From assembly GCF_014193585.1 (NCBI RefSeq), contig NZ_BLXY01000001.1, forward strand, positions 863,033 to 927,032: a stretch of DNA of 64,000 nt. The letters run 5' to 3'. Source of the DNA: Geomonas paludis. GTDB taxonomy: Bacteria > Desulfobacterota > Desulfuromonadia > Geobacterales > Geobacteraceae. A model generated the notes under the pieces. The model had not been told where the DNA came from. It saw only the letters and a program-made list of their open reading frames with translations, and made no database searches. This document shows, piece after piece, positions 1 to 9,648 of the stretch (positions within the stretch are counted from its first letter, which is position 1; every line of letters begins with the position of its first letter). The position numbers and the translations under genes are program-made.

Positions 1-3000
1 CTGAGCGGTGTCGTCAAAAACCCTGGCGGGGCCGGCATTCAGAATGTTTACGTTCAGATACAAGACAATACCAGCGGTGTGTCAGCCGGTTCCGCCTGTA
101 CGGATGCCAACGGCAATTATTCTGTCGCTTTGGCTAGTGGGACGTATAGAGTCAATCTCTATGGGGGATCATACACTTACTACGGGAACTGTGGAACTAC
201 GACAAATGTGCCGACGCCGAAATATTTCGAGGGATACGGCATAGCGCAGAACCTGGCGATCTCAGGCAATACCACCCAGAACATAACGATTCCCATTGTG
301 ACGATGAGCGGGAAGACCACTGACAGCAACGGCGTTGCGGTCGGCAATGTGACAGTAGATCAGCCGGGACGATCGGTAGCACAAAGTGTTGGCTCTTACT
401 ATGTGTCTAACGCTTATAGCTACTCACCCGTCAAATCGGATGCTTCAGGCAACTACAGCATGGTCCTCATTGCCGGATCGGGATACTCTGAAACCATCAT
501 CCCCCCCACTGGCAGCGGCTTTGCGCAGACAGTTGTCAATAACTTGAATGTTACAAAGAGTGTGCTCCAAAACATCATCCTTTCCATGCCAGACACCAGT
601 GCCCCCATCATCATCTCTGGCCCGACTGTGTCATCATACAGCGATACCACTGCCACCATCGAATGGCAAACCAACGAGCCTGCTAAAGGCGCGTTGGTGT
701 ACGGCACCAGCAACCCGCCGACGGGTACTACTATTCCGGAATCGGCATTCACAGCAACCCACTCTCAGTCGCTCACCGGCTTGAGCGCCAACACCACCTA
801 CTACGTCAAGGTGACCGCCAGCGATGCCGCGAACAACGGCCCGGCCACAAGCTCGATCGTCAGTTTTACCACCAAGCCGACAGCGGACAAAACACCGCCG
901 GAGATCCTCACGGGTCCGACTATTAGCAGTATCACCGATACATCGGCGGTGGTGGAATGGACGACTAACGAACCCTCCACCGGTTCGGTCGCGTATGGCC
1001 TCTCTAGTACACCCAACCTGACTGTAGCCGACGCTACCCTTGCCACCAGTCATCGCGTAACACTGACGGGCCTCACGGCGGAGACGGTCTACTACTTGAA
1101 AGTTGCTGCGACCGATGCTTCCAATAACGGTCCCACATCCTCGTCTGTCATCTCGTTCCCGACTGTTGCCGCGCCGGACACCACCGCTCCGGTGATCATC
1201 GAAGGCCCCATGGCGATCAATGTCAGCGATTCTGGCGCCACCATAGTATGGAAGACCGATGAGCCTTCAACCAGCGGTGTCTCTTGGAATGACGGCACCG
1301 TTTATGGCGTTCTCTCAGACAACAGCCTGGCCACGAACCACTCCATGACGATCACCGGACTTGCCGCTACCAAAACTTACAGCTATACCGTGTCATCTAA
1401 GGATGCCTTCAATAACGGGCCGACCCTGAGCACTGCCAAAACCTTCACCACGTCGGCCGCGCCCGACACCAAGCCGCCGATCTTTACCCAGGCGCCGATC
1501 GTAAAGAACACCACCCACCAATCGGCTGTGCTTTACTGGGAGACCGACGAGCCGTCAAGTACCACCATACAGTACGGCACTACGCAATCATTCGGCACAG
1601 CAGACGCCAAGGCACAACTGCTTACCACGCACAACCGCCCGCTGACCGGCCTGCTGCCCGGCACTACCTACTACTTCCGCGTGCAGGCGACCGATTCCAC
1701 TGGCAACACAGCCACCGGCCAGATCTATACCTTCACCACGGACGTGAACCCTGATACCAAGGCGCCGGTCATTACTGAAGAAGCCAGCATCGTCTACTCA
1801 ACTGACACCGCTGCAACCGTTGCCTTCAGCACTGACAAGCCGTGCGACACGGTGGTGAATTATGGAGCCAACGGCACCACCGGCAACCAGAAATCGAACA
1901 GCGAGAAGGTCAACGACCATCAGATTACCCTGACCAACCTGACCCCCAACACCTCCTACAACGTCCAGGTTTCCTGCACAGACATGTCAGGCAACACGGT
2001 AGTGGCTTCGGCCGGCAAACCGTCCACCTATATGGCGATGAATTATTCCTTCATCTTAAGCGACGCCCTGGTCGGTGCTTCGGGCAAAGGTTTCGTGACG
2101 CCGTCACTCCCCGACATAACGCCGCCGCTGATCACGGATACTCCCCGGGCAACTGTGACAACCACCACTATGGCCCGTATTCACTGGCTGACCGACGAGA
2201 TAGCGGACTCACAGGTTTTTTACGGCCTTTCGGGGCAGAGCCTGTCAAGCTTCGCCGGCAACATTACCAAGTCCGCCGGTCATTCTGTGGCGCTGACCAA
2301 CCTGTCACCTAATACCACCTACGACTTCAAGGTGCAGTCGACCGACCCGTCGAACAACACGACCACCTCCGCGGTCTACACCTTCACTACCGCCGCATTG
2401 GCCGACACCACCCCCCCGGTGATTTCCGCAGTATCGGCCAGGGGGACTACTTCCAGCCAGATCAACGTCAGTTGGGCAAGCGACGAACAATCGTCGACGG
2501 TCCTTAAATACGGCACCACCCCCTTCACGCTTACTGCCCAGATAGCCATCGCCGGTTCGAGAACCAGCCATTCTGCTGCTCTATACAATCTGGTGCCGGG
2601 TACAACATATTACGTAGCGCCCGTGTCGACTGACAGCTCTGGCAACACAACCCAAGGGGATATCCAATCGGTAACACTGGCCGGGGCGGCGCCCGCTAGC
2701 TATACGGTCACCGCCTCTGCAGGGACGGGCGGTAGTGTCACCCCGGTCAGCCAGGCAGTCTACAGCGGCTACCAACTCGCTCTGGCCGTGACACCGGCTC
2801 AAGGCTACATGGTCAATTCGATCACCGGTTGCGGAGGGACGTTGATCGGCAGCGTGTACACCACTGCGGCAATTACCAGCAACTGCACCGTCTCGGCCTC
2901 ATTCAAGATCGACCCGAACTTTACCGGGACCATACTGACCACTACCGCATATCCGCCTGCAGGCACTTATGCCGGCGGCACCCTGATGGTGAAGCTGAAG

Positions 3001-3903
3001 GCCAACACCCCCTCCGCCGCCATCTACTACACCACCGACGGCAGCACTCCCTCCACGTCATCCGCGGTCTACAGCACCGCGATTGCTGTGGTCGGAACCA
3101 AGACGATCAAGTTCTTCGCAAAGGATGGCACAACGCTGGAAACTGCCAAAAGCGCCATCTACACCGTTAACGCCACCGGGCAGCCCGCAGCGAGCTTTAG
3201 CGGCCTGAAACCGGGCTCCAGTTTCACTGTGTACCGTTCAGAGGGAGGCAAAGCGCCCACGTCGATCTACAGCGGACCCCAGACGAGCTTTGCCGACAGT
3301 GGTTCGCTGAAGCCCAATACCATCTATACCTATACGGTTGCTTCCGACCAGGAGGGGGCCACGGAGCTGATCAGCGTCAAGACGCCACTCTATAACGGCT
3401 GGAACATCATTGCAGTGCCTTACAACACGACCGGAGTCCCCCCGACAAGCTTCTTCGCCACCCCGGTCAGCTCCATCTATGAGTGGATCCCCACCGGCGC
3501 CACCGCAGAGAGCAGTACTACGCAGCTGGGCTCCTACAAAACGGTGACAGCGCTTACCCCTGGCCTGGGATATTTCGCCAAGGCGTCCGGCAGCAGCACC
3601 CTGCTGACCTACAACGGCGCAGCCGTCCCCGCCAGCGTGACTGTGACCCTGAAGCCGGGCTGGACGATGATCGCCAATCCCAATGTCGCCAACAAAACCA
3701 ACATCGGAACCACCTGGCTCGTGGATGGAAACCCTCTCTCCGACGCCATCAACACCAACAAGATTGGTGGCAGCATCTACTGGTGGAACGGTACGACCTA
3801 CGACTCCTGGACCATCTTGGGCAACAACCCGCAAGTGGAACCCTGGAAAGGTTACTGGATCATCAACCTGGAATCCGTCAACCACACCCTGACCATTCAG
3901 TAA
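1..3903 (+). CDS. Giant secreted fibronectin type III repeat protein (5' partial)
   Basis: The frame is already open at base 1, so the start lies upstream; 1300 codons are visible. In order: two carboxypeptidase-regulatory-like repeats ending in DANGNY and DASGNY motifs; seven fibronectin-III units (about residues 195-890) of the purple-acid-phosphatase type with a recurring W-x-T-(N/D)-EP...YG core; an InlB-type bacterial repeat with a Cys pair; a chitobiase/hexosaminidase C-terminal-like module around YYTTDGSTPS; and a C-terminal part beginning GWNIIAVPYN and ending in an aromatic-rich domain. This is a cell-surface or secreted adhesin-like or polysaccharide-binding protein by architecture; the actual ligand is unknown. 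It is followed after one base by the next gene, so it probably heads or belongs to the exosortase operon. Its own C-terminus (LTIQ) has no membrane helix or basic tail, so it is not an evident sortase substrate. G+C is visibly lower than in the rest of the window. Confidence 0.9.
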   Translation: MSGVVKNPGGAGIQNVYVQIQDNTSGVSAGSACTDANGNYSVALASGTYRVNLYGGSYTYYGNCGTTTNVPTPKYFEGYGIAQNLAISGNTTQNITIPIVTMSGKTTDSNGVAVGNVTVDQPGRSVAQSVGSYYVSNAYSYSPVKSDASGNYSMVLIAGSGYSETIIPPTGSGFAQTVVNNLNVTKSVLQNIILSMPDTSAPIIISGPTVSSYSDTTATIEWQTNEPAKGALVYGTSNPPTGTTIPESAFTATHSQSLTGLSANTTYYVKVTASDAANNGPATSSIVSFTTKPTADKTPPEILTGPTISSITDTSAVVEWTTNEPSTGSVAYGLSSTPNLTVADATLATSHRVTLTGLTAETVYYLKVAATDASNNGPTSSSVISFPTVAAPDTTAPVIIEGPMAINVSDSGATIVWKTDEPSTSGVSWNDGTVYGVLSDNSLATNHSMTITGLAATKTYSYTVSSKDAFNNGPTLSTAKTFTTSAAPDTKPPIFTQAPIVKNTTHQSAVLYWETDEPSSTTIQYGTTQSFGTADAKAQLLTTHNRPLTGLLPGTTYYFRVQATDSTGNTATGQIYTFTTDVNPDTKAPVITEEASIVYSTDTAATVAFSTDKPCDTVVNYGANGTTGNQKSNSEKVNDHQITLTNLTPNTSYNVQVSCTDMSGNTVVASAGKPSTYMAMNYSFILSDALVGASGKGFVTPSLPDITPPLITDTPRATVTTTTMARIHWLTDEIADSQVFYGLSGQSLSSFAGNITKSAGHSVALTNLSPNTTYDFKVQSTDPSNNTTTSAVYTFTTAALADTTPPVISAVSARGTTSSQINVSWASDEQSSTVLKYGTTPFTLTAQIAIAGSRTSHSAALYNLVPGTTYYVAPVSTDSSGNTTQGDIQSVTLAGAAPASYTVTASAGTGGSVTPVSQAVYSGYQLALAVTPAQGYMVNSITGCGGTLIGSVYTTAAITSNCTVSASFKIDPNFTGTILTTTAYPPAGTYAGGTLMVKLKANTPSAAIYYTTDGSTPSTSSAVYSTAIAVVGTKTIKFFAKDGTTLETAKSAIYTVNATGQPAASFSGLKPGSSFTVYRSEGGKAPTSIYSGPQTSFADSGSLKPNTIYTYTVASDQEGATELISVKTPLYNGWNIIAVPYNTTGVPPTSFFATPVSSIYEWIPTGATAESSTTQLGSYKTVTALTPGLGYFAKASGSSTLLTYNGAAVPASVTVTLKPGWTMIANPNVANKTNIGTTWLVDGNPLSDAINTNKIGGSIYWWNGTTYDSWTILGNNPQVEPWKGYWIINLESVNHTLTIQ

Positions 3904-3904
3904 G

Positions 3905-4423
3905 ATGAGGCCGAATATCTTAAGACAGTTCGCAGTGATAGTTGCAACCTTGTGTCTTACCAGTGTGGCGGCCATGGGTTTCGAACCCATGACCGCCACC
4001 ATCAGGGTCTCGAGCGGCTCCCTCTACGACTACGTGGTCATTGGAGAACACCCCAAGGCAGATAACGGTTTCGACAACGCCTATGACACGATCCACCCCG
4101 GGAACCTGAATGCGGACATGGGCGAGCCGTACATCAGCACCGTCATTCCGCAGCCGAAATGGAAGCCTGCCATGAGGGAACTGAAGGGGGATGTTCGCTC
4201 CCCAGCCAAAAACCAGCAGTGGCAATTGGTAATCAGTTCCAGCTTGGCCAAAGGGACGCCGCTTACGCTGGAACTCCAGGCTGAAGGTAGCTCATTGCCC
4301 CCGGCGCTGAAGCTGATATTGATTGATAAAAAGAACATCGACCTGAGGCAAGGGGAGTATGTCTTCCCTGCACCGGGGCCGGGCAAAACAACGACATTTT
4401 TCATTACCGCTGAACAACCATAG
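3905..4423 (+). CDS. Secreted hypothetical protein, exosortase locus
   Basis: A 172-residue protein with a clear Sec signal peptide (MRPNILRQ then a hydrophobic stretch to about residue 23). The mature part is predicted to be all-beta. It contains a NGFDNAYD motif and later VFPAPGPG, which recall a motif (xxGFDxxxDxPxPP) seen in some secreted anchoring domains; that resemblance is by eye only. The start lies two bases after the stop of the fibronectin-III gene and has no strong ribosome-binding site, which suggests translational coupling. The gene lies 13 bases before the small sorting-signal protein, so all four genes look like one operon. Function unknown; a partner or cargo of the neighbouring surface protein is an inference. 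Confidence 0.75.
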   Translation: MRPNILRQFAVIVATLCLTSVAAMGFEPMTATIRVSSGSLYDYVVIGEHPKADNGFDNAYDTIHPGNLNADMGEPYISTVIPQPKWKPAMRELKGDVRSPAKNQQWQLVISSSLAKGTPLTLELQAEGSSLPPALKLILIDKKNIDLRQGEYVFPAPGPGKTTTFFITAEQP

Positions 4424-4436
4424 TAAGGAGCCAACT

Positions 4437-4631
4437 ATGAAACGAGATCTCCACCAAATCGCGGAAAAACTACTTCTGGCAGCCATCGCCCTAGGCAGCC
4501 TTTGCACGGCAAGCTGGGCCGGCCCTCCCCCTCCGCCGAGCATCCCCTCGACTCCAGTAGGCAATGCCGAGATGAGTGCCGTAACCATGGTCGCGGTTGC
4601 CGCATACGGGTTCTGGAAGATGCGCAAGTAA
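4437..4631 (+). CDS. Small exported protein with exosortase-type C-terminal sorting signal
   Basis: A 64-residue protein starting at an ATG seven bases after a good ribosome-binding site (TAAGGAG at 4424). Residues 1-28 form a Sec signal peptide ending in ASWA. A proline-rich spacer follows (residues 30-40), then VGNAEMSA, a short hydrophobic helix (about 47-60) and the basic tail WKMRK. This tripartite end (short motif, transmembrane helix, basic cluster) is the hallmark of exosortase/archaeosortase substrates. The motif is not the classical PEP motif, and only loosely recalls the IPTLxxWG class. The exosortase-family gene starts two bases after its stop codon, so this is probably the dedicated substrate. 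Almost nothing is left between the two signals, so the mature product would be a peptide of about 15 residues. Confidence 0.75.
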   Translation: MKRDLHQIAEKLLLAAIALGSLCTASWAGPPPPPSIPSTPVGNAEMSAVTMVAVAAYGFWKMRK

Positions 4632-4633
4632 CC

Positions 4634-5647
4634 ATGCCTTTGTTGCGTAATTCCGATAACCAAGCCCTGCAGCCTGGCTCCGTCTTTGCCGTCCTGTTCA
4701 TGTTTTGCGTTATCTCTGTGACGGCTTTGATGGCGTCCATCCCTGTTTCCTGCCAGATCGCATGTCGTGACGTAACCATCCTGGTCACAAAGGCGGTTGG
4801 TACAGTGCTGGGGGTGGCTATGACCAGTAACGCCGACATTCTCACAGTAAACGGCTTTGCCATGCGGATCATCAACCAGTGCACCGCAGTCGACTATATG
4901 GCAATTTTGGCTACGGCGATTCTCCTCTATACCCGCCACAGCCTCTCTTACCGGTTGCTCGGTCTTGCCATCGCAGTGCCAGCGGTAGTATTGGCCAACG
5001 CCTTACGTTTGCTCATATCCGGCGTCGTAGGCTCCTTCTCAAGGCCCGCCTTTGATTTCGCCCACGACTATCTCTGGGTGATCGGCTTCGCCCTTATCGT
5101 TTTTGCCATCTGGACCCTGTGGGTCAATGGCCGCTTCTTCGTCTCCAAGTCGGCAGCACGGCGCGTTGGACTAACTGTCGCGGGGTCCTTAAGCGCCTAT
5201 GGACTGATGTTGTTTTCTCAAGATGTCTACGGGGACTTAATGGCACAGGCAAGTTCGGTTTTTTACAGACTGATAAGCCATGACCCTTTGGCTTCGATTG
5301 TCTGGGATGGCGATATGATGGTTTACCGCAGTGCCGGGGCAAGTATCGTCCTGGAAAACATGTTGGAGCAGGTGAATGTTGCCTTGTACGTCGGCTTGAT
5401 GGTGCCGCTGCAGAAAAAGGGCGATTGGGAGATGCTGGGGATGACCATCATCGGGCTTGTTTGCGTCATGTTGATGAACGTTATTTTTGTAGCCTTGGGG
5501 TGTCGTTTTGCTGTTGCCTCAGGAGTAGGTGCTCTTCTCAATTTTGAAGGCATAGGAAGTGTAGTTCATTTGTCACTGCCCATGACCATGTACTGGATAT
5601 TGATGAGTGGAAGAAGAGAAGCCGCCCCGCGATTAAATACGGAGTGA
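4634..5647 (+). CDS. Exosortase/archaeosortase family transpeptidase
   Basis: A 337-residue polytopic membrane protein. The catalytic pattern of the exosortase family is visible: Cys83 in NQCTAVDY, Arg125 in ANALRLL and His144 in FDFAHDY, each at the edge of a predicted membrane helix. In the family these residues cleave a C-terminal sorting signal and transfer the protein to another molecule at the cell surface. After the core (to about residue 165) there is an extra C-terminal region of about 170 residues with further hydrophobic segments and no motif I can name, so the protein is longer than minimal exosortases. The start ATG at 4634 was chosen because it sits two bases after the small substrate gene; an in-frame opening further upstream overlaps that gene and is unlikely. 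It is the last gene before a strong terminator. Confidence 0.85.
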   Translation: MPLLRNSDNQALQPGSVFAVLFMFCVISVTALMASIPVSCQIACRDVTILVTKAVGTVLGVAMTSNADILTVNGFAMRIINQCTAVDYMAILATAILLYTRHSLSYRLLGLAIAVPAVVLANALRLLISGVVGSFSRPAFDFAHDYLWVIGFALIVFAIWTLWVNGRFFVSKSAARRVGLTVAGSLSAYGLMLFSQDVYGDLMAQASSVFYRLISHDPLASIVWDGDMMVYRSAGASIVLENMLEQVNVALYVGLMVPLQKKGDWEMLGMTIIGLVCVMLMNVIFVALGCRFAVASGVGALLNFEGIGSVVHLSLPMTMYWILMSGRREAAPRLNTE

Positions 5648-5683
5648 CCACGTAGTCACGCTGTTGGCGCCCAGGGCTCAGCA

Positions 5684-5727
5684 TTGAAAATCCTCGTGTC
5701 GGCGGTTCTATTCCGTCTCTGGTACCA
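5684..5727 (+). tRNA. tRNA-Phe-like 3' half, degenerate (possible attachment-site relic)
   Basis: The bases resemble the 3' half of a tRNA-Phe: an anticodon loop TTGAAAA (anticodon GAA), a T arm with stem GGCGG/CCGTC, and an acceptor end finishing in ACCA. The 5' half is missing: the sequence upstream does not pair to form an acceptor or D arm. The anticodon stem is broken, the T loop has T where a purine is expected (TTCTATT), and the acceptor strand is one base short. It is not a functional tRNA. Such 3' halves are typical core sites left by integrases at the edge of integrated elements, and this one lies exactly at the boundary of the lower-G+C exosortase locus. Confidence 0.5.
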
Positions 5728-5739
5728 CTGGAAAGCAAA

Positions 5740-5769
5740 GGGGCCAGCTAGAATTAGCTGGCCCCTTTT
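5740..5769 (+). terminator. Rho-independent terminator, probably bidirectional
   Basis: An 11-bp perfect stem (GGGGCCAGCTA / TAGCTGGCCCC) with a GAAT loop is followed by TTTTGTTTTT. It ends the exosortase operon on the plus strand and lies just beyond the stop of the convergent subtilase gene, which it could also serve. Confidence 0.85.
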
Positions 5770-5789: not shown

Positions 5790-8700
5790 TCACTTGAATC
5801 TGAGGCTCTCCACGACGACCTTCCCGCTTTTCACCGCCAGTTTCCCGAGTATCCCCGTCGTCTCCCTGTTGCTGTAGTACTGGCAGTCGAACCCGCCCCG
5901 CAACTTCACGGTTATGTCGCGATCGAAGCTGAGATCGCCGGGGAAGTCGTAGGCCTGTAGCAGGATCGAGCCGTCGCCGGGCGCCTGTGCATAGGCGCCT
6001 TGCGGATCGTCAAAGGATGCCGGGGGGAGCGAGACGGTGGTGACCCTGGCCCGTTGATTCATGCAGGCCAGGACGGTTACGCTGCTCGGGGCCGCGGTGG
6101 AACTGCCATATGCGTTGGAAGCGGTGAGCGAGGGGAGGTACGTGCCGGCTGCAGTGTACACGTGCGCGGGATGCTGCTTGGTGCTGCCGGTACCGTCGCC
6201 GAAATCCCAGGCCCAGTCGGAGGCCGCGCCGGCGGTGGTGTCGGTGAACTGCACGGCAAAAGGTGCATAGCCGATCAACTGGTTGAGGGTGAAGCCTGCA
6301 CTCAGGTTGGTCACCGAAACCGTTAGCTCCCGCTCGCTGCTCACCCGCCCCAGGGCGTCGCTTACCCGTACCGTGAAGGTGAAGGTGCCGGAGGCGGTGG
6401 GGGTGCCGTTCAATTCTCCGGTGACGGGGTCAAGGCTGAGCCCCTGCGGCAGGGCCCCGGCCGTGAGGGACCAGTTGAAGGGCGCAACACCGGTGGCGGC
6501 TATCGGATACCGGTAAGGGATCAGCATCAGCCCGGGGGGGAGTTGCGACGAGATGACGCTGAGCGGCGCGATCCCATATTCGATGGTCAGTATGTCGTAG
6601 TCGCTGCCGTTCCCGCTTAAGCCGGTGGCAAAGATCTGGCCCGAGGGGCCCAGCGCCACTGCGAGCGCCACGTCGCCGGTTTGCATCGGGGACGCGTAGT
6701 CGAGCGGGCCGCCGGAGTCGCTGGTGCGGTTCCAGAGCAGTTGACCTTCGGGAGAATAGCAGAGGATGTTGAAGTCGGAACCATGGCCGTTCGTGAACCC
6801 GGCGACGTAGGCCCTGCCGCTGCTGTCGACGGCTATGTCATAGCCGTTGGGGGTGCCCATGCCGTCGTAATCGGCGCTCCAGAGCATGTTGCCATCAGTG
6901 TCGTACTTCCTGGTCACCTGCATCCCGATGCGGTGGCCGGAGACGTAGGGGTTGCCGGCGGGGTCAAGGGCTAGACCTTCCCACTGGTCCTGCAGCGTCC
7001 CGTTGTCTTCCGTCTTGACCCACAAGAGCTGTCCTGCCGCATCGTATTTCATCAGCAGGAAGTTGTAGTCGTAATCGGGGTGCCCGCCTTCGCTGCCTGC
7101 CACGTAAACATTGCCGGAGTCGTCGACGGCGACCGCACGGGCGCTGCCATCGATCGGGCTGGCGTAGACCCGGTGCCACAACTCGTCTCCGGCCGGGGAC
7201 AGTTTTGCCGTCATGACCTGGTTCTTGAAGTTTTCCGTATCGAGGGTGTTGCCGGCGATGTAAATGGCGCCGTCGGCGCCGACGGCGATGTCATCGGCAT
7301 ACGCATAAGTGGCCACTCTGTAGGCCTTTTCCCACAGCAGTTCACCGTCGCGGCTGATTTTCAGCACCAGGTAGTAGCTGTCATCGAGGCTGCCGGAGAT
7401 GAAGGCCTCGCCGGCGGCATTCACTGCCACTGCCGAGCCGAAATCCCTGCCCGGGCTGTCGTAGCGGTAGGACCAGACCTCGTTACCAGTCGGGTCGTAC
7501 TTGACCAGCAGAATCGACTCATTGGCAAGGTCGTACATGGTGCTGAGCACGTAGGAGTTCCCCTCGGCGTCGGCGGCAACGGCGTCGCCGGCATCATCTA
7601 CGGAGGTTCCCTTTACCGCGGCCCAGCGCTCCACGACCGGCGAGTTTTGTACGTGCAGGTTCACAACACGCATGACCGCTTGCCCCAGTGCCACGCGTAC
7701 CGGCCAGATGCCGCTCACCGTCGGGACTCCCGATATTTCCCCCGTCGCGGGGTCCAGGGTGAGACCGGGCGGCAGGGCGCCTTCGGCCACGGACCACTGC
7801 AGCGACCCGGTAATGCCGGTAGCCTTCAACCGCTGACGGTAGGGGAGACCGACGTTGGCGGCGGGCACGAAGTGGACGATGGACGGCGTGGGCAGCAAGA
7901 CCTGTTCGCTTCCCGCCGGCGAGGTGAACATGAGCTGCTCCGGGTTCCTCACCGGGGTCCAGGACGCTGAGAATATCCCGTCGCCGGCAACGGTGTCGGG
8001 GGCGATGCCGTCGTCGTGCAAGGTGATGCTTTCGCCGCCGGAGGTGGTGACGGTGACGTCGCCCAAGGGCGATCCGCAGGAAATGCTGAGGGCCGATATG
8101 ACCGTCGGCACGCCGGGAGTAAGCGTGGCTGGGAGTTGCTGCACGGCGAACAGCCTCTGGTCCGAGCAGGTGAGCGACCCGTAAGCGCTGAGCCGTTTTC
8201 CCGTCAGTGTGTTCCATTGCGCGGCAGGAATGGTATCGCCGCCGGTGAGGATCAGGTTGCGCAGTGTGCTGGCGTTGCGGGAGGGATCCGCCGCCTTGGC
8301 GAGTGCCACCACGCCGGTGACGTGGGGGGCGGCCATCGAGGTCCCGGAGAGTTCGCCGTATCCGCCGGCGAAGCCCCACTCGTTGACGGCGGGGAGGGTG
8401 CTGACGATGTTGGCGCCCGGTGCGAGCAGGTCGACGCTTTTTTTGCCGTAGTTGGAAAAATAGGCGACCTCGTCCATGCTGTCGCTGGCACCAACGGAGA
8501 TTATGTCGGCTGAGGGGTAGGCGGAGGGGTAGAACGGGATCCTGTCGCTGTCCTGCGTGTAGTTGCCTGCGGAAGCGACGAAGAGGGTGCCGGCCTGGTT
8601 GTCGATGGCGTCGAGGAGCGCCTGTGAGTAGTCGCCACCGCCCCAACTGTTGTTGGAGGCGATCACCGGTACGCCGCGCTCCTTCATCTGCCTGATGTAC

Positions 8701-9560
8701 TGCAGACAGGTGATGGCGTCGGAAGTGTTGCCCTGGCCTGCGGCGTCCACGAACTTGCATGCCATGATCTTCACGTTCCAGTTGACCCCGACCACGCCGG
8801 TCGAGTTGTTGCCGACGGCGCCGATGGTGCCGGCAACATGGGTGCCGTGCCCGTTGTCATCGAACGGGTCGCCCGAGCCGGTGATGGCGTTGATGCCGTA
8901 GACGTCGTCGATGAAGCCGTTGCCGTCGTCGTCGATGCCGTTGCCGGGAATCTCCTGGGTATTGCCCCACACGTTGGCGGCCAGGTCGGGATGGGTATAG
9001 TCGATGCCGCTGTCGATGGTGGCGACCACGACGTCGGCGCTGCCGGTGGTAATATCCCAGGCCGCGGGCGCCTTGATGTCCGCCCCCGGGTTGCCCCGCC
9101 ACAGGTTCTCCAGCCCCCACTGCCAGGCGAAGAGCGGGTCGTTGGGCTGCGCCTGCAACTGGAAGACCATGTTGGGCTCGGCGTACTGCACGTCCGCGTC
9201 CGCCTGGTACAGCTTCACTGCCTCCTCGACGGTCATCCCCTTTTTCAGCTTCAGGTGGTGCAGGCGCAGGGCCTCGAACTCCTTGAGCTTCTCCGCGCCG
9301 TGCTTCTTGTGGAGGTTCTTTTTCCTTTCCGACGGGACCCCGGCTTTGAACTTTACCAGCAGTTCCCCCTCCCTGTACTTCTTCCGGAGCGGCGCGCGGT
9401 CATCGGTTTTACCGGGCAGGACGTGTTTGCGGGGGAGTACGGGGCTGGGATGGGGCGCCTGGACGCCGACGGCGCCGGGGAGTACTGCGGCATGGACGTA
9501 ACTGGTGCAAAGAGTCAGGGCGAGGGTTAGCGGTACCAGTAAGGTGGAAAAGCGGGTCAT
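5790..9560 (-). CDS. Secreted S8 (subtilisin-like) serine peptidase with Ig-like, beta-propeller and PKD domains
   Basis: A 1256-residue exported protease. The start at 9560 gives an immediate signal peptide (MTRFSTLLVP...YVHA) and has a GGAGG site six bases upstream; a longer opening at 9620 adds 20 non-signal residues. Order: signal peptide; propeptide of the fervidolysin type (about 60-135); S8 catalytic domain with Asp183 in TIDSGIDYTHPD, His238 in NGHGTHVAGT and Ser408 in SGTSMAAPHV; a putative Ig (He_PIG-like) module; about eight SBBP-type propeller repeats with DxxGNxYVAG motifs; a second He_PIG module (ALPQGLSLDPVTGELNGTPTASG family pattern); a PKD domain with WDFGDG; and a C-terminal beta domain ending KLRGG...VVESLRFK. 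The triad is complete, so it should be an active extracellular protease. The substrate is unknown. Confidence 0.93.
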   Translation of the reverse strand: MTRFSTLLVPLTLALTLCTSYVHAAVLPGAVGVQAPHPSPVLPRKHVLPGKTDDRAPLRKKYREGELLVKFKAGVPSERKKNLHKKHGAEKLKEFEALRLHHLKLKKGMTVEEAVKLYQADADVQYAEPNMVFQLQAQPNDPLFAWQWGLENLWRGNPGADIKAPAAWDITTGSADVVVATIDSGIDYTHPDLAANVWGNTQEIPGNGIDDDGNGFIDDVYGINAITGSGDPFDDNGHGTHVAGTIGAVGNNSTGVVGVNWNVKIMACKFVDAAGQGNTSDAITCLQYIRQMKERGVPVIASNNSWGGGDYSQALLDAIDNQAGTLFVASAGNYTQDSDRIPFYPSAYPSADIISVGASDSMDEVAYFSNYGKKSVDLLAPGANIVSTLPAVNEWGFAGGYGELSGTSMAAPHVTGVVALAKAADPSRNASTLRNLILTGGDTIPAAQWNTLTGKRLSAYGSLTCSDQRLFAVQQLPATLTPGVPTVISALSISCGSPLGDVTVTTSGGESITLHDDGIAPDTVAGDGIFSASWTPVRNPEQLMFTSPAGSEQVLLPTPSIVHFVPAANVGLPYRQRLKATGITGSLQWSVAEGALPPGLTLDPATGEISGVPTVSGIWPVRVALGQAVMRVVNLHVQNSPVVERWAAVKGTSVDDAGDAVAADAEGNSYVLSTMYDLANESILLVKYDPTGNEVWSYRYDSPGRDFGSAVAVNAAGEAFISGSLDDSYYLVLKISRDGELLWEKAYRVATYAYADDIAVGADGAIYIAGNTLDTENFKNQVMTAKLSPAGDELWHRVYASPIDGSARAVAVDDSGNVYVAGSEGGHPDYDYNFLLMKYDAAGQLLWVKTEDNGTLQDQWEGLALDPAGNPYVSGHRIGMQVTRKYDTDGNMLWSADYDGMGTPNGYDIAVDSSGRAYVAGFTNGHGSDFNILCYSPEGQLLWNRTSDSGGPLDYASPMQTGDVALAVALGPSGQIFATGLSGNGSDYDILTIEYGIAPLSVISSQLPPGLMLIPYRYPIAATGVAPFNWSLTAGALPQGLSLDPVTGELNGTPTASGTFTFTVRVSDALGRVSSERELTVSVTNLSAGFTLNQLIGYAPFAVQFTDTTAGAASDWAWDFGDGTGSTKQHPAHVYTAAGTYLPSLTASNAYGSSTAAPSSVTVLACMNQRARVTTVSLPPASFDDPQGAYAQAPGDGSILLQAYDFPGDLSFDRDITVKLRGGFDCQYYSNRETTGILGKLAVKSGKVVVESLRFK

Positions 9561-9619
9561 GGTTCCCTCCATTGCAATGCAATCCCCAAAGTGGGTATGT
9601 CGACATTTGAGCGGGTTCA

Positions 9620-9648
9620 CACTTATCTTTTCACATGAAAAGTGTCAA
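9620..9648 (-). promoter_or_regulatory. Candidate sigma-70 promoter of the subtilase gene
   Basis: Reading the minus strand, a consensus -35 TTGACA (9643-9648) is followed by a weak -10 around 9620-9627. The spacer holds an inverted repeat, TTTTC ACAT GAAAA, that could be an operator. It lies 60-90 bases before the start codon at 9560. Confidence 0.4.

Follow-up and report, generated by a model that had tools for sequence, protein, structure and literature searches.

What does an exosortase do with a substrate of 64 residues, and does the pair belong to a known sorting system? This question is raised by a locus of Geomonas paludis, found in a window of 64,000 nucleotides (the whole stretch of DNA analysed); its contig measures 1.37 Mb and its genome 5.1 Mb. 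On the + strand, the gene of a 64-aa peptide (4437..4631) ends two bases before that of a 337-aa exosortase-family protein (P0001; 4634..5647). An earlier reading made from the letters alone (the sequence-only reading) had presented this pair as a self-contained mini-locus. Its coordinates and gene order were borne out, and its delimitation proved too narrow: a giant Fn3 gene and the gene of a 172-aa protein belong to the same conserved four-gene operon, in the order giant Fn3 protein, 172-aa protein, 64-aa peptide and exosortase, successive genes being separated by 1, 13 and 2 bases.

The window holds the C-terminal part of the giant exported Fn3-repeat protein (1..3903, + strand), which contains the Pfam domains fn3, Pur_ac_phosph_N, CarboxypepD_reg and CHB_HEX_C_1. 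This gene likely starts some 550 bases upstream of the window, on the far side of a 5-N assembly gap ending at the first base of the window. Its last ~190 residues (3331-3900) form a conserved domain that carries no sorting tail. The exported 172-aa protein (P0003; 3905..4423, + strand) has no Pfam or NCBIfam match, and its gene includes a near-perfect inverted repeat (3965-3999) around the codons of AAMGFEPMTAT, also present in G006 (L034). The operon is followed by a strong terminator-like hairpin of the intrinsic type (5737..5768, + strand), beyond which a convergent gene on the minus strand (5790-9620) encodes a 1276-aa protein that by eye looks like an exported protease of the subtilisin type containing repeat domains. 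At other loci, the gene of a sigma-54-type regulator (NtrC-like by eye) was seen just upstream of the operon (L151:4413-5921, L033:504-1952 and L037:279-1769) or of the exosortase (L094).

The sorting tail and its pairing with the exosortase

The enzyme was recognized by the family models TIGR04178 (49.4 bits for a cut-off of 23, NCBIfam scan) and PF09721 (32.2 bits for a cut-off of 25.7, Pfam scan). Its catalytic half covers approximately residues 14-167 and includes the residues Cys83, Arg125 and His144, which had been read as intact and are identical in the 13 aligned orthologues. N122 and R125 are invariant in 9 of 9 rows, which fits the NxxR motif described for the exosortase family in the accessible part of PMC1569441. 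Full-length orthologues (259 bits or more) were detected at at least 13 loci in 12 of 277 genomes of the class, the next best match having 73.5 bits; the best seven candidates of each genome were scored with the enzyme profile, so the locus counts are lower bounds. Among 395 sampled genomes of the phylum, none had a further orthologue at E <= 1e-20. The carriers of this version of the exosortase are metal-reducing soil bacteria.

The 64-aa peptide is composed of a likely signal peptide (residues 1-28, by eye), the segment GPPPPPSIPST (residues 29-39) and the tail PVGNAEMSAVTMVAVAAYGFWKMRK (residues 40-64; 4554..4628, + strand), where a P[VLI]GG-like motif and the hydrophobic stretch after it lead to YGxW and a basic end. 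The motif AAGGAG precedes its ATG (by eye). The aligned peptides share the likely signal peptide and the proline-rich start, which is [GN]PPxPP in most of them, with the exceptions GAPPPPP in G030 and TPPPPP in one peptide of G004. The low values of pN relative to pS over residues 29-64 indicate a real gene under purifying selection (pN of 0.10-0.12 versus pS of 0.57-0.79 in four distant pairs, and 0.00 versus 0.08 and 0.04 versus 0.52 in two close pairs), and a spurious ORF was ruled out on these values. A lipoprotein reading of the Cys of the peptide was rejected, since its position varies among the peptides (by eye).

The alignment of the 25-residue tails gives the consensus P[VLI]GG...YGxW[KR]SR[KR], from which some tails depart, including that of the window (PVGN...YGFWKMRK) and the least typical one, in G030 (PIWNDV...YGVWRIWR). 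A 27-column profile of the tail was used against the 277 genomes of the class, with a match defined by E <= 0.001. The tail was found in all 12 genomes that contain this exosortase and in none of the 265 others; thus 12 genomes have both, 265 have neither and none has one only. The Fisher test of this co-occurrence gives p = 3e-21, a value that ignores the relatedness of the 12 genomes, which represent five genera. In a looser search on 24 genomes, the best score was 14.9 bits where the exosortase is absent versus 40 bits or more where it is present. A chance pairing of enzyme and tail was rejected on the distribution over the 277 genomes, and the pairing is strongly supported by these sequence comparisons. 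As the genome of the window has a single tail, the pairing here rests on the other genomes.

These results sustain the proposal, made in the sequence-only reading, that a dedicated exosortase is matched with a tripartite tail of a non-PEP kind, and that the exported peptide ends in a motif, a helix and a basic stretch, the C-terminus being conserved across the peptides. The further statement that only one substrate is visible holds for the genome of the window and fails as a rule: the 18 tails detected are distributed from one to four per genome, with three in G004, four in G262 and two in G263. The substrates have mostly 60-71 aa. Nor is the small protein absent beside the orthologous exosortases, since a tail-bearing gene adjoins 11 of 13 of them or, in G009, is one gene away. 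For the two other exosortases (G004 and G262:C363), the tail-bearing genes are located elsewhere in the genome. In G004, an ORF of the opposite strand (a kinase by eye) occupies the place of the peptide at the exosortase locus, and three unlinked peptides bear the tail, two of them encoded directly behind giant Fn3 genes. G262 contains four near-identical mini-substrates on four contigs, together with a 60-aa remnant of an exosortase (L122). Finally, the tail of G263:C38 is carried by a 458-aa protein composed of a Vgb-like propeller and an Ig domain, whose gene is directly before a second copy of the exosortase. From its occurrence both on tiny peptides and on this 458-aa protein, the tail is read as a movable module, and the enzyme would not be restricted to mini-substrates.

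Relation to known exosortase classes

Among the models listed in the NCBIfam scan of the enzyme, every named exosortase class remained under its cut-off: XrtH (TIGR04177) with 47.7 bits for a cut-off of 86, archaeosortase B (VPXXXP) with 46.3 for 150 and XrtX with 36.6 for 170. None of the CTERM models was passed by the tail, so that a known CTERM model was rejected for it. PID-CTERM was the only one listed for the peptides, in one of eight, with 7.8 bits and an E-value of 3.1 for a cut-off of 26. Four matches of PID-CTERM elsewhere in the genome of the window (best 10.9 bits) were judged as noise.

The system could nevertheless be a divergent form of XrtH or of XrtX and not a separate class. 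The core of the enzyme is similar to XrtH (hhalign probability of 99.7%), the XrtH-clade enzymes also have a long C-terminal extension that is distantly similar to that of this class, and the sole CTERM model listed for the peptides is the partner of XrtX. XrtX and PID-CTERM (NF046081 and NF046080) share with this system a short tail in which a P-x-G/D-G-like motif and a hydrophobic stretch are followed by YG and the basic end, and the PID-CTERM carriers of Bacteroidota are small and proline-rich. However, the scores of XrtH, XrtX and PID-CTERM all lie below their cut-offs, and the tail does not contain the IPTLxxWG pattern of the IPTLxxWG-CTERM signal of XrtH. A tree of 29 catalytic cores also separates three clades, namely this class (support 99/97), eight XrtH-like sequences (98/93) and eight short sequences (100/99). 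Two of the eight XrtH rows were scanned with NCBIfam, L086 (244.8 bits) and L084 (96.3 bits) both exceeding the XrtH cut-off, and the other six are assigned by the tree alone; the best-scoring model of L084 is archaeosortase B (107.5 bits, under its cut-off). A merely divergent XrtH or XrtX system is therefore considered improbable, and a class of its own is preferred.

A literature search, from which subscription papers mostly fell outside, yielded no account of an exosortase in Geomonas, with a microprotein or with PID-CTERM. A known precedent is the PEP-CTERM/EpsH system, in which a tripartite C-terminal signal and an exosortase were associated by phylogenetic profiling, according to the accessible part of PMC1569441. 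The present pair likewise joins a tripartite C-terminal signal to an exosortase, and differs from PEP-CTERM/EpsH by its motif, which is not PEP, by its one to four tails per genome and by the small size of most substrates.

The third clade of the tree is found at this operon in other genomes. G002 and G261 keep the gene order (giant, 172-aa protein, substrate, exosortase) with an enzyme of the short class in the last place. The substrates of 157 and 283 aa begin with a peptide-like proline-rich segment, followed by one or more Ig-like domains; the start of the G002 substrate matches positions 1-35 of the peptide profile (E-value of 1.3e-7), and that of G261 matches it with an E-value of 2.7e-5. 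Their tail is VPVM[ED]G[WI]W...ARRRK. The class of the enzyme and the type of the tail thus switch together at this operon.

This exchange bears on another reading of the peptide, in which it is not a substrate but a small membrane protein that partners or regulates the exosortase. Such a role would agree with a gene mostly located beside that of the enzyme and with a product having one helix and a basic tail. It accounts poorly for the same tail on a 458-aa protein, for the unlinked copies of G004 and G262 and for a tail type that switches with the exosortase class, and we regard it as very improbable. The peptide is better read as a substrate. Taken together, we consider with a probability of about 0.68 that the locus would represent a distinct pair of an exosortase and its cognate C-terminal sorting signal in Geobacterales, with a mini-protein as usual substrate, working with a giant surface protein.

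Eight loci of the short class were looked at (L091, L092, L093, L095, L096, L140, L142 and L094), and further short matches were present in the class search. All eight encode an enzyme of ~190 aa and an overlapping or abutting hydrophobic ORF of ~150 aa. In seven of them the product of the preceding gene ends with VPV[ML]x[GS][WI]W and a basic stretch, L094 being the exception, and L140 encodes a second protein with a tail of the short class (266-1297). The NCBIfam scan covered two of the eight enzymes, which both scored under all the class cut-offs. The genomes G003 and G006 contain both exosortase classes. The short class resembles XrtF and its adjacent partner protein in having a small exosortase accompanied by this additional ORF. 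In Flavobacterium johnsoniae, XrtF and the exosortase F system-associated protein (Fjoh_1448/1449) are tied to surface colonisation and biofilm in the accessible parts of PMC10936215 and PMC12188702, and the latter offers cyanoexosortase B as another precedent for an exosortase in surface colonisation or biofilm. The NCBIfam models of XrtF partners matched neither the four short-class partner ORFs scanned (of eight) nor the extension of the class described here.

The C-terminal extension of the enzyme

The additional C-terminal region of ~170 residues announced by the sequence-only reading is present (residues 168-337; 5135..5644, + strand). In the AF2 model of the enzyme (pLDDT 82.8, pTM 0.77, alignment of nine rows), the succession helix-helix-three strands-three helices occurs twice, the eight elements being repeated with offsets of 156-161 residues. 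At the positions of the extension derived from these offsets, Cys, Arg and His are found in 0 of 13 rows. The two halves compared directly gave no sequence signal, nor did the extension compared with the ~150-aa ORF of the short class. No sequence match in the PDB and no Foldseek match at E <= 0.001 were found.

The profile comparisons provide indirect links. The extension of this class is similar to that of the XrtH clade with a probability of 80.8% (E-value of 1.3e-5 over 129 columns) when 13 rows are aligned full-length, and with 28.2% only when 12 rows are used (score of 29.8 versus a shuffle maximum of 20.2). The extension of the XrtH clade is in turn similar to the cores of the same clade (83.9%, E-value of 7.8e-6; score of 41.4 versus a maximum of 31.3 in 30 block shuffles). 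Its second half is similar to the ~150-aa ORF of the short class (96.6%, E-value of 4.9e-10); as block-shuffled columns reach up to 56.0, nearly the real score of 57.3, versus 17.9 for single-column shuffles, this similarity is local and its collinearity unproven. Two enzymes of the XrtH clade have 666-698 residues (L085:7703-9796 and L097:7326-9323); the ~330 residues that they add behind the membrane part have no Pfam match at E <= 0.01 and by eye recall a cohesin-like domain.

The extra ~170 residues likely correspond to a degenerate, catalytically dead second exosortase fold, which would probably pair with the catalytic half as a pseudo-dimer.

Genomic setting, giant protein and proposed role

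A tRNA-Phe gene (L040:6324-6399) precedes the window by 1.6-1.7 kb. A displaced 3' fragment of tRNA-Phe follows the exosortase gene (5680..5735, + strand; 89% over 56 bases and 97.5% over 40). The same fragment is found 3' of the exosortase in G012 (L032:5460-5494). In G002 it is found 3' of the short-class exosortase and its partner ORF (L092:8697-8736), the upstream region containing tRNA-Phe and the same preceding gene (efp by eye). No integrase was seen by eye between tRNA-Phe and its fragment. With a tRNA-Phe gene upstream and a displaced fragment downstream, the operon looks inserted at tRNA-Phe in these genomes, with alternative enzyme modules at one site; in the window, the fragment would mark its right end.

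An aptamer of the c-di-GMP-I riboswitch lies 1.05-1.13 kb before the window (L040:6902-6980; 42.5 bits for a gathering score of 35), ahead of a 107-aa CarboxypepD_reg-like ORF that is followed by the giant gene. In G261, a GGC-type match is situated 0.1-0.2 kb before the open frame of the giant (51.1 bits, below the gathering score of 59). No riboswitch was detected on the operon strand at gathering thresholds in L033, L034, L036, L037, L118, L119 and L120, nor at E <= 0.5 in L033, L034, L037, L119, L120, L151 and L152; the riboswitches of G265 are on the opposite strand. Among the loci searched, the link with c-di-GMP is therefore seen in two only.

The connection of the peptide with the giant Fn3 protein, suggested by the sequence-only reading, is supported by their co-inheritance. 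The C-terminal domain of the giant (E <= 1e-30) is found in 12 of 141 genomes of the order, which are 10 of the 12 exosortase genomes plus G002 and G261, and a tail-bearing substrate is among the next two genes for 13 of the 14 copies of this domain, the copy of G018:C126 having no adjoining peptide. The 172-aa protein (E <= 1e-10) is found in 14 of the 277 genomes of the class, namely 11 of the 12 exosortase genomes plus G002, G261 and G246 (a fragment). G262 has only a 78-aa piece of the giant C-terminal domain; it also encodes relatives of the 172-aa protein that end in a dockerin type I domain, one of which has Fn3 as well, next to a giant Lcl_C protein (L080, L121 and L123).

From these data, a mechanism can be proposed. 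The signal peptide would export the 64-aa precursor, which the C-terminal helix and the basic tail, as read by eye, would hold in the inner membrane. The exosortase, through Cys83, Arg125 and His144, would then recognize P[VL]GG...YGxW, cut near the motif and probably hand the product on to a lipid or polysaccharide acceptor; this chemistry is taken from the known family, for which the accessible parts of PMC11980579 and PMC1569441 describe a cleavage of the tail and probably a transfer to an acceptor. A proline-rich peptide of 10-20 residues would thus be left on the envelope. The mature product had been predicted as proline-rich with about 15 residues: the proline-rich start is confirmed, and the segment between the end of the signal peptide (by eye) and the P-V-G motif counts 11 residues in this peptide and ranges over 10-18 among the 13 peptides that were measured (of 14). 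The peptide may then act in trans as the peg or acceptor of the two proteins encoded with it in the operon, the giant Fn3 protein and the 172-aa protein, or of one of them; neither has a sorting tail. G030 has the enzyme and the peptide without the giant C-terminal domain and without the 172-aa protein, so anchoring in trans would not be universal.

The very small size of the predicted product and the purifying selection on its conserved proline-rich start would also suit a short extracellular signal or effector, freed by the exosortase and not anchored as a peg. We consider this unlikely: the Ig substrates of 157 and 283 aa (G002 and G261) and the 458-aa protein of G263:C38 suit display on the surface better than the role of a pheromone, the operon shows by eye no gene for a receptor, and the substrates of exosortase-type enzymes are considered to stay anchored on the cell surface (PMC11980579, accessible part). 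Within the anchored reading, we put forward tentatively, at clearly less than even odds, a more specific scheme. The class would mainly install on the envelope a proline-rich peptide of 10-20 residues, instead of a protein, as a peg for a giant, c-di-GMP-controlled Fn3 surface protein in trans, and would depend on an obligate dead-fold partner, fused to the enzyme in this class and its XrtH relatives or encoded next door in the short class; the pairing of a catalytic and a dead fold is perhaps an unrecognised rule in several classes.

The group attached by exosortases is unsettled and the targets of XrtF are unknown, according to the accessible parts of PMC11980579 and PMC12188702. The locus described here offers a minimal test case, in which one enzyme is paired with one substrate of 64 aa and the distribution within a cultivable genus is cleanly on or off. 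So small a product can be read directly by mass spectrometry, by which the attached group could be identified, and the natural exchange of exosortase class and tail at one operon amounts to a specificity swap already made. Should the second half of the enzyme be a dead exosortase copy, it would point to the way in which such enzymes are assembled.
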